This document shows positions 22,388 through 25,206 of a stretch of 64,000 nucleotides of DNA, piece by piece. How positions within the stretch are numbered: position 1 is the first letter of the stretch; each line of letters opens with the position of its first letter. This stretch comes from Gemmatimonadota bacterium (GTDB lineage: Bacteria; Gemmatimonadota; Gemmatimonadetes; Gemmatimonadales; GWC2-71-9): positions 1-64,000 of the forward strand of contig JANYLJ010000002.1 in assembly GCA_025357945.1 (NCBI GenBank), in the 5' to 3' direction. The notes below the pieces were generated by a model. It was not told where the DNA came from and searched no databases. It was given only the letters and a program-made list of their open reading frames with translations. A program made the translations under genes and the position numbers.

Positions 22388-22891
22388 ATGGGCACCTTTC
22401 GCATCAGCGTCAGCAAGGACTATCTCGCCTTCGCCGCTGCGCACTTCATCACCTTTCGCGGGCATGCCTGCGAGTCGTTGCACGGCCACAACTATCGCGT
22501 CGGCATCGTCATCCAGGGTCCGATCGATCCGGAGTGTCACTTCGTGGTTGATTTTGCCGTGCTCAAGCGGATCGTCCGCGGCCGAGTGGATCTGCTCGAT
22601 CATCGCGTCTTGCTGCCCACGGCAAATCCGAAGCTTGCCTTTCGCGAAGCGGACGGGATGACGTTTGTGAACTACCTCGGCCGGCAGACGTATCAGTTCC
22701 CCACCCGGGACTGCGCGATGCTTCCGATCGCGAACACAACGGCCGAGATGATCGCCGAATGGTTTGCCGGCCAAGTGCAGGACGAACTCAGCCGGGCAGG
22801 AGGAACCGTCGACCTGCTCGAGATCGAAGTCGAGGAATCCGCGGGCCAGTCGGCGATCTACAGCGAACGGCGCGGCGAACGTCACCCCTGA
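22388..22891 (+). CDS. queD: 6-pyruvoyl-tetrahydropterin synthase/QueD family (CExxHGH type)
   Basis: COG0720 enzymes convert 7,8-dihydroneopterin triphosphate. QueD makes carboxytetrahydropterin for queuosine, while PTPS-III variants make 6-hydroxymethyl-dihydropterin for folate. The 167-residue protein has zinc ligands H19 (AAHF), H32 and H34 (LHGHNY), catalytic C28 and the later LDHRVLL motif. The sequence C28-E29-x-x-H32-G-H34 contains both the Cys of the CxxxHGH (QueD) motif and the Glu of the ExxHGH (PTPS-III) motif. It heads a cluster with pterin dehydratase and pabBA, which favours a folate role or a dual one (inference). Confidence 0.88.
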   Translation: MGTFRISVSKDYLAFAAAHFITFRGHACESLHGHNYRVGIVIQGPIDPECHFVVDFAVLKRIVRGRVDLLDHRVLLPTANPKLAFREADGMTFVNYLGRQTYQFPTRDCAMLPIANTTAEMIAEWFAGQVQDELSRAGGTVDLLEIEVEESAGQSAIYSERRGERHP

Positions 22892-22904
22892 CCAGGATGC
22901 CGAC

Positions 22905-23258
22905 GTGAAGACGAACGAACCGGTGTACGATGGTGCCGCCCTGACCCCCAAGCTCGCCGGACTCCCGCGCTGGACAGACCGCGACGGCTGGCTGCACCGC
23001 GAATTCACGACCGATGGGTGGCGGAGCACGATGCTGCTGGTGAACGCCATCGCGTTCGTTGCGGAGGCGGCCAACCATCACCCTGATCTCGAGGTCCACT
23101 GGAGCCGTGTCGTGGTGCGATTGCAAACGCACTCGGCCGGCGGGATTACCGACAAGGATCTCCAGTTGGCGGCCCGGATCGACGCGACCGCACTCTGGCG
23201 CCCGATCGGCGGATTCCCGGGCCTCGAGGGGCAGTCGAGCGGGTGGATCAGCAGCTGA
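22905..23258 (+). CDS. 4a-hydroxytetrahydrobiopterin dehydratase (PCD/DCoH)
   Basis: This enzyme dehydrates 4a-hydroxy-tetrahydropterin and recycles pterin cofactor. The 117-residue protein begins at a GTG (VKTNEPVYDG), 13 nt after queD. Its core, AIAFVAEAANHHPDLEVHWSRVVVRLQTHSAGGITDKDLQLAARID, contains the family signature with the catalytic HHP and a later Asp. The extra C-terminal segment LWRPIGGFPGLEGQSSGWISS is a little longer than usual. Its place between queD and pabB supports a role in pterin supply. No phenylalanine hydroxylase gene is in the window. Confidence 0.92.
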   Translation: MKTNEPVYDGAALTPKLAGLPRWTDRDGWLHREFTTDGWRSTMLLVNAIAFVAEAANHHPDLEVHWSRVVVRLQTHSAGGITDKDLQLAARIDATALWRPIGGFPGLEGQSSGWISS

Positions 23259-23290
23259 CCGGGACCTGAACGCTGACAGCTTCCGCGCCG

Positions 23291-24646
23291 TTGGTCATTC
23301 GACTCGATGCGACGCGCTCACCGCTCGACGCACTGTCGCAATTCGTCGACCTGCCCGATCCATCGCTGCTGCAGAGCGCAGCGGACGGGCACCCACTCAG
23401 TCGGTACAGCTTCCTCACTGCTGACCCGGTGGCCCGCATCACCGCCGGCGCGAACGAGTGGCCATCGGTCCGCGAGCGTGTGCGCGGGACGCTCGGTACC
23501 CCGCCGGCGCACGCGGCGCAGCTCCCGCCGTTTCAGGGCGGCTGGATCGGCTGGTTCTGTTACGAACTCGGTACCGCGTTCGATCGGGTCACCCGCCACC
23601 CACACCAGCCGTACCCGGTTGCCGACATCGCACTCGGCCTGTACGACTGGGTGATCGCCTGGGACCACGCCTTGGGCGACGCGTGGCTGATCAGTACGGG
23701 TATCGATGCGGCTGGCGACGGCGACGGGCGCCGGGCCCGCCAACGTGCCGACACGGTCCTCCAACGCTGGCACGCCGACCGGTGCACCGAGCCGAGCCGT
23801 GCGAACGAGTCCGGTGCATCGCCCCGATCCGACTTCAGCGCTGCGCAGTACCAGGCGGCAGTCGAGCAAGTGATCGCGTATGTACTTGCGGGCGACATTT
23901 TCCAGGCGAACCTGGCGCAGCGATTCAGTACTTCATTCGACGGCGATCCGTTCGCGCTGTACGCCAACCTGACCGGGGGTTCGCCGGCGCCGATGGCGGC
24001 GTTCATGCGGCGAGGCCGGGTGTCGGTGGCGAGCGCGTCGCCGGAACGATTTGTCCAACTGGACATGCCCTCGCGGCACGTCGAGACCCGCCCGATCAAG
24101 GGAACCCGCCCGCGACATGCCGACGCGGCACGCGACGCGGAGCTCGCCCGCGCGCTCGAGGCCAGCGCCAAGGATCGTGCGGAGAACGTGATGATCGTCG
24201 ACCTGATGCGGAATGATCTTTCGCGCGTGTGTGTGCCGGGATCGGTCCGCACGCCGTCGCTGTGCGCACTCGAATCGCACCCGACCGTGCATCATCTTGT
24301 GTCGACCGTCACCGGCGACCTGCGTGCGGATTGCGACGCCCTGGACCTGCTCGCCGCGACCTTCCCGGGCGGCTCGATCACCGGCGCACCGAAGCTGCGC
24401 GCGATGGAAATCATCAGCGAACTCGAGCCGGTTGCCCGCGGCGTGTACGCCGGGGCGATCGGTTGGATCGGGCTCGATGGCGCGATGGACACCAGCATCG
24501 CGATCCGCACCGTGACCGTCGCGGACAACGTCGCGACGGTGCACGCGGGCGGCGGGATCACGGCCCGATCGATACCGACCGACGAGTACCAGGAATCGCT
24601 GGACAAGGCGCGGGCATTGATCGCCGCAATCATGGCGGCGCGATGA
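23291..24646 (+). CDS. pabB: aminodeoxychorismate synthase component I
   Basis: PabB combines chorismate with ammonia from PabA to give 4-amino-4-deoxychorismate, the p-aminobenzoate precursor for folate. The 451-residue chorismate-binding protein carries ETRPIKGTRPR. The Lys of PIKGT (about K270) is the residue that separates PabB from TrpE, where PIAGT is usual. FPGGSITGAPKLRAMEII and DTSIAIRTV are also intact. The best start is a TTG at 23291, 32 nt after the dehydratase stop, as no ATG lies in a sensible place. Its stop overlaps the pabA start by 4 nt. Confidence 0.93.
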   Translation: MVIRLDATRSPLDALSQFVDLPDPSLLQSAADGHPLSRYSFLTADPVARITAGANEWPSVRERVRGTLGTPPAHAAQLPPFQGGWIGWFCYELGTAFDRVTRHPHQPYPVADIALGLYDWVIAWDHALGDAWLISTGIDAAGDGDGRRARQRADTVLQRWHADRCTEPSRANESGASPRSDFSAAQYQAAVEQVIAYVLAGDIFQANLAQRFSTSFDGDPFALYANLTGGSPAPMAAFMRRGRVSVASASPERFVQLDMPSRHVETRPIKGTRPRHADAARDAELARALEASAKDRAENVMIVDLMRNDLSRVCVPGSVRTPSLCALESHPTVHHLVSTVTGDLRADCDALDLLAATFPGGSITGAPKLRAMEIISELEPVARGVYAGAIGWIGLDGAMDTSIAIRTVTVADNVATVHAGGGITARSIPTDEYQESLDKARALIAAIMAAR

Positions 24647-25206
24647 TCCTCCTCCTTGATCATGACGATTCGTTCGTGTTCACCCTCGCGGCCTACGTGG
24701 CGGAGCTTGGCGGGGAGCCGGCCGTGATTCGCGCCCACGATACCACGGTCCAAGCGATCGCCGCGCTGGGTCCCCAGCGGATCATCCTGTCGCCGGGGCC
24801 TCGCACACCGCGGGAATGCCCGGTTGCCCTGGACGTGATCCGGCGGCTCGGCGCGAGGATACCGGTGCTCGGGGTATGTCTCGGCCATCAGTGTATCGCT
24901 GCTGCCTTCGGCGCGGCCGTCGAGCCGACGGCGCACCCGCGCCACGGCAGTACGTCGGCGATTACACACGACGGGCGCGGCCTCTTCGCCGGCGTGCCCA
25001 GTCCTTTTCGCGCGACACGGTACCATTCGCTCGCGGTCGTCGCGTCGAGCGTACCACCGATGCTGGAAGTAACCGCGGTTGCCGACGACGGCGACATCAT
25101 GGGCGTCCGGCATCGCGGGCACAGGATCGAGGGTGTGCAATTCCACCCAGAGTCGGTGCTGACCGAGTGGGGACACCGCATCCTCGCCAACTTTCTCGGC
25201 GCGTAG
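24643..25206 (+). CDS. pabA: aminodeoxychorismate/anthranilate synthase glutamine amidotransferase
   Basis: This class-I glutamine amidotransferase feeds ammonia to PabB. The 187-residue protein has the full triad: nucleophile C79 in GVCLGHQ, and H168 and E170 in VQFHPES. The opening LLLDHDDSFVFTLAAYVAELG is the PabA/TrpG signature (normally DNYDSF). The ATG at 24643 overlaps the pabB stop (ATGA), so synthesis is coupled and stoichiometric. Because its partner is PabB-like, folate rather than tryptophan synthesis is favoured; in some bacteria one such subunit serves both. Confidence 0.94.
   Translation: MILLLDHDDSFVFTLAAYVAELGGEPAVIRAHDTTVQAIAALGPQRIILSPGPRTPRECPVALDVIRRLGARIPVLGVCLGHQCIAAAFGAAVEPTAHPRHGSTSAITHDGRGLFAGVPSPFRATRYHSLAVVASSVPPMLEVTAVADDGDIMGVRHRGHRIEGVQFHPESVLTEWGHRILANFLGA

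Follow-up and report, generated by a model that had tools for sequence, protein, structure and literature searches.

Proteins of the PTPS family are divided into subfamilies by motif, namely CxxxHGH in PTPS-I, CxxxxxHGH in PTPS-II and ExxHGH in PTPS-III (PMC5041015, a review by the group that established these subfamilies). The PTPS of Plasmodium falciparum and P. vivax (PTPS-III; 1y13 and 2a0s) converts dihydroneopterin triphosphate to 6-hydroxymethyl-7,8-dihydropterin, a reaction for which Glu38 is required (PMC2229834). Proteins with CExxHGH can exist as well, and PTPS-I/III hybrids work in both pathways in some organisms (PMC5041015); as that review relates it, Phillips et al. (2012) proposed that CExxHGH hybrids serve the folate and the queuosine pathways. 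The absence of folB from Acidobacteriota, Chloroflexota and Planctomycetota has also been noted (PMC4674097). FolB bypasses and CExxHGH hybrids are therefore already known, and the principle is not new. Our literature search found no paper joining Gemmatimonadetes, folate biosynthesis and folB, and what is added here is that the known kind reaches Gemmatimonadota, a connection with the long form of the Plasmodium enzyme, a quantitative account of folB replacement, and naturally occurring cases in which the two roles come apart.

A PTPS gene upstream of pabB and pabA

The window, by which we mean the whole 64,000-nucleotide stretch of Gemmatimonadota DNA that was analysed, contains four consecutive genes on one strand (Table 1). 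A preliminary description of this DNA had claimed a C28-E29-x-x-H-G-H motif in a PTPS protein, with a pterin dehydratase, PabB with PIKGT, and PabA encoded after it, all on one strand. The motif is present as CESLHGH, and Pfam and NCBIfam searches find all three neighbors on the + strand. The PTPS reading frame starts with ATG downstream of a GGAG-like ribosome site, its product is a member of Pfam PTPS (83 bits, cut-off 22.4), PIKGT begins at residue 268 of PabB (base 24092), and pabB and pabA overlap by 4 bases. The gene was found in eight congeners, each of which keeps the order PTPS-PCD-pabB-pabA, and the same order is seen in further genera. Among 27 aligned orthologues of 46–83% identity, C28, E29, L31, H32, G33 and H34 are invariant. 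Since the motif is invariant in these orthologues and the gene order recurs across genera, the CExxHGH observation is confirmed as real and a chance motif is excluded.

Table 1. Features of the PTPS-pabA region, in window coordinates
Feature	Position	Strand	Evidence
PTPS/COG0720 protein, long (Plasmodium-like) type, CExxHGH, 167 aa	22388..22891	+	Pfam PTPS, nearest PDB, orthologue alignment, tree
Motif C28-E29-S30-L31-H32-G33-H34	22469..22489	+	Cys aligned as in QueD, Glu as in PTPS-III/Plasmodium; two His of Zn-ligand type
Insertion of ~25-35 residues, LPTANPK...YQFPTRDCAMLPI	22622..22729 (bounds approximate)	+	phmmer alignment to 2a0s/1y13/3lze; long versus short match lengths
Pterin-4a-carbinolamine dehydratase (PCD/PhhB family)	22905..23258	+	Pfam PF01329, 93.3 bits; NCBIfam NF002017 above cut-off
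PabB, aminodeoxychorismate synthase component I, PIKGT	23291..24646	+	NCBIfam TIGR00553, 350.9 bits (cut-off 328.4)
PabA, glutamine amidotransferase of aminodeoxychorismate synthase	24643..25206	+	TIGR00566 above cut-off; Pfam GATase

The window protein carries the CxxxHGH signature of QueD/PTPS-I (C28-ESL-HGH), the ExxHGH signature of PTPS-III (E29-S-L-HGH) and, with both, the CExxHGH signature of the PTPS-I/III hybrids. The CxxxxxHGH motif of PTPS-II (biopterin) was not found in it, the spacing being that of CxxxHGH. It has each sequence and context feature of a PTPS-I/III hybrid that could be tested, and by these features would be one. With QueD/PTPS-I (E. coli QueD, 4ntk, 3qn0) it shares the COG0720 fold, the Zn-type His residues and CxxxHGH, but QueD proteins are shorter and form a separate clade. 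Indeed, the window protein misses the cut-off of the NCBIfam QueD equivalog TIGR03367 (70.9 versus 89.25 bits), so that in the earlier label "QueD/PTPS" the family assignment holds, as Pfam indicates, and the QueD part is doubtful.

The closest PDB entries by sequence are those of Plasmodium PTPS (E 7e-22 to 7e-21), with E. coli QueD at 1.7e-10. In the phmmer alignment, the window protein and Plasmodium PTPS have in common an insertion, absent from short QueD proteins, that separates the DHR/DHH motif from the NTTAE/SSTEE helix, and E29 is in register with the catalytic Glu of the Plasmodium ExxHGH, within a shared ExxHGHNY. The two proteins are about 31% identical, and in Plasmodium PTPS an Arg, not a Cys, precedes the Glu, so that it has no CxxxHGH. 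The AlphaFold2 model of the window protein has a pLDDT of 88.9 overall, and the loop with C28 and E29 is poorly modelled (mean pLDDT 57 for residues 21-30). A fold search with this predicted model places four Plasmodium PTPS entries at the top (E 2.7e-16, TM 0.82) and QueD far lower (E about 3e-7, TM about 0.54). In a tree of 68 proteins, including long CE, Plasmodium, QueD, short QueD-like and PTPS-II proteins, the two Plasmodium proteins fall into a single clade (100/99) with the 31 long proteins that have the Cys-Glu pair (CE-long), which come from four phyla, and this clade stands apart from QueD, the short QueD-like proteins and PTPS-II; the placement of Plasmodium within this clade is weak (83/89), on a long branch of unusual composition. 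The likely "QueD" label of the window protein is thereby corrected, and bacterial relatives of the malarial folate enzyme are pointed out.

CExxHGH was also considered as a bypass marker on its own and was rejected, because three folB-positive relatives, G015 (L104), G031 (L107) and G033 (L111), have short QueD-like proteins that read CERMHGH or CERFHGH. The motif that had been taken as evidence of a bypass is thus real and weaker than assumed: by itself it is not diagnostic, whereas the long type together with gene context is, and CExxHGH must be read with the Plasmodium-type insertion and the gene neighborhood. G015 has its short CExxHGH protein although the searches found neither queC nor queF in that genome.

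Mutually replacing distribution of folB and the long CE gene

The genome of the window, a 3.0 Mb Gemmatimonadota assembly that is 99.8% complete, was searched family by family for pathway genes. FolE (two copies), FolK, FolP, QueC, QueE and QueF each score above the NCBIfam cut-off, whereas FolB (PF02152) has no match in this genome or in nine congeners, although control genomes do match. The absence of FolB, on which the proposed bypass depends, is thus borne out, and Plasmodium likewise has no FolB. The two FolE (GTP cyclohydrolase I) genes, at G000:C40:40864 and G000:C31:3249, are of different subfamilies, and the folK gene sits between panB and trpA. QueC adjoins queE on a contig other than that of the window PTPS gene; several relatives have a QueD gene beside queC, which the window gene is not. 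The possibility that queC and queE would stand with another QueD was also checked: queC, queE and queF are present, and of the three PTPS-family genes in the genome only the window gene encodes CxxxHGH.

Among 61 relatives, none of the seven same-family genomes that have folB carries the long CE gene, and 26 of the 30 folB-negative ones do; three of the four folB-negative genomes without it are less than 90% complete. We then scored 150 Gemmatimonadota genomes, each at least 90% complete, for CExLHGHNY (as a DNA pattern), FolB and FolK. Each of the 35 members of the same family in this set has at least one of CE and folB, and the two co-occur in a single genome. Throughout the set, the 86 folK-positive genomes comprise 32 with CE only, 41 with folB only, four with both and nine with neither (Fisher p 3e-11 for the exclusion of CE and folB, 2e-7 when weighted by genus, phylogeny beyond genus being ignored). 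CE also predicts folK: among the 105 folB-negative genomes, folK is present in 32 of the 36 with CE versus 9 of the 69 without it (Fisher p 1e-14, genus-weighted 2e-6, again ignoring phylogeny beyond genus). FolB was above cut-off in none of the folK-negative genomes of the set. Furthermore, it was above cut-off in none of 19 further CE carriers whose own genomes, of completeness not given, were searched (seven Acidobacteriota, three Chloroflexota, eight Planctomycetota and one distant member of the Gemmatimonadota). The claim that this enzyme replaces FolB is thus strongly supported by comparative tests, comprising the CE and folB distributions, the further carriers without FolB, and gene order.

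Several genomes of the 150 depart from this pattern. Nine have folK and neither FolB nor CExLHGHNY (G057, G069, G120, G123, G127, G128, G142, G162 and G167), and may depend on some other form of PTPS-III or on an aldolase other than FolB. In four with CE (G133, G135, G154 and G169), FolK was not found, which could reflect gaps in the assemblies or another kinase at the next step. G073, G052, G131 and G134 carry the CE gene alongside folB; G052 also has QueD beside queC, so its CE enzyme must have a further role or be in transition. Sixty genomes, of family f2 and others, are without FolB, FolK and the CE gene alike, which suggests that de novo folate synthesis has been lost in large parts of the phylum.

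Gene neighborhoods were compared in 80 related loci by BLAST with the proteins of the window's genome, which limits the sensitivity accordingly. The CE gene clusters with folate genes, namely pabB/pabA in Gemmatimonadota and folK in Acidobacteriota and Chloroflexota, where folK lies directly downstream in two and three loci, respectively. PCD is near 44 of the 80 loci, and in this search queC, queE, queF or folE was found beside the CE gene in none. The PTPS-II gene adjoins folE in many relatives.

Proposed roles of the enzyme in folate and queuosine synthesis

FolK in this genome requires 6-hydroxymethyl-dihydropterin and QueE requires 6-carboxytetrahydropterin; with a single CxxxHGH gene present, one enzyme for both is plausible. 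In the pathway that we propose, the window enzyme would act on 7,8-dihydroneopterin triphosphate, the product of FolE, with Glu29 presumably serving as the active-site base for side-chain cleavage to 6-hydroxymethyl-7,8-dihydropterin, which would then be processed by FolK and FolP. The p-aminobenzoate half of folate would come from PabB and PabA, whose genes share the operon, and the window enzyme, presumably through Cys28, would probably also give 6-carboxytetrahydropterin for queuosine. The predicted folate intermediate is that made by FolB, and the distributions of the two enzymes replace each other, although FolB is of a different family and its substrate is dihydroneopterin, not the triphosphate. 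Judged from sequence and genome comparison, the folate role is very likely; that a long-type PTPS-I/III enzyme replaces FolB and probably supplies the queuosine precursor too is, as a whole, likely. The interpretation as a FolB bypass or dual enzyme, with which the analysis began, is supported overall, and for Gemmatimonadota it gives a genomically well-supported answer to the missing folate step. A FolB analogue of another fold may also be present in the genome.

That the window enzyme is, via Cys28, also the QueD of its genome seems on balance probable, by elimination only, because the genome has queC, queE and queF but no further paralogue with CxxxHGH. The folate half of the earlier dual claim therefore stands more firmly than the queuosine half. 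Four relatives that are 90–99% complete (G017, G024, G028 and G036) have, apart from weak queC/queF cross-matches, no queC, queF or folB that could be found, and all keep the CE enzyme, including its Cys. Queuosine is thus not what retains the gene, and conservation of the Cys is no proof of a queuosine role; these genomes led us to reject the view that queuosine is the sole reason for keeping the Cys. They also bear on the possible but rather unlikely alternative of a PTPS-III enzyme confined to folate, in which the Cys would be structural or accessory and the queuosine precursor would come from elsewhere, for instance from the paralogue that lacks the Cys or by salvage of the base. This alternative accords with the four genomes, with the lack of que genes beside the CE gene in the 80 loci, and with the fact that Plasmodium PTPS works with Glu alone. 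It leaves the window's genome and most CE-positive relatives, which keep queC and queF, in need of a source of 6-carboxytetrahydropterin with no other CxxxHGH protein at hand, and CExxHGH hybrids are reported to be active in both pathways (PMC5041015). A more speculative proposal, which we consider improbable, is that the long CExxHGH type is the ancestral bacterial bypass synthase, from which the Glu-only Plasmodium form arose when the gene was transferred and its Cys was lost, and that the bacterial Cys acts in the folate-type reaction, which would explain its invariance in lineages without queuosine synthesis.

An ordinary QueD serving queuosine only, its position beside pabB and pabA being incidental, would agree with the CxxxHGH motif, with queC, queE and queF in the genome, and with the fact that short QueD-like proteins of folB-positive relatives can read CExxHGH. 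It is nonetheless very unlikely, since the protein falls below the QueD equivalog cut-off and groups with Plasmodium PTPS apart from QueD, and the gene is retained in genomes without queC and queF, replaces folB and predicts folK across genomes, and has folK directly downstream in other phyla; moreover, folate synthesis would then miss a step. Marginally less likely still is a role in biopterin synthesis as a 6-pyruvoyl-tetrahydropterin synthase, with PCD alongside to recycle biopterin. PCD is indeed the next gene and is frequent near related loci, but PCD has roles outside biopterin too (PMC3223725), the window protein is without CxxxxxHGH, and the genome has a separate PTPS-II-type paralogue (CNLPNYHGH) that is followed by an SDR gene, the arrangement expected of biopterin synthesis, its counterparts lying beside folE in many relatives. 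For the preferred reading, that of a long-type enzyme acting in place of FolB and probably for queuosine as well, the tabulated occurrences of CE, folB and folK, together with the lineages that lose queuosine genes and keep CE, offer a ready test of the roles of Cys and Glu.

The third PTPS paralogue of the genome has lost the catalytic Cys (GPPEDHGH; L046:8331-8723, G000:C36, about 88330-88722) and is encoded downstream of both gpmI and the gene for a putative outer-membrane protein. Such Cys-less forms are seen in CE-bearing relatives, whereas folB-positive relatives have a Cys-containing PTPS-II-like homologue instead.
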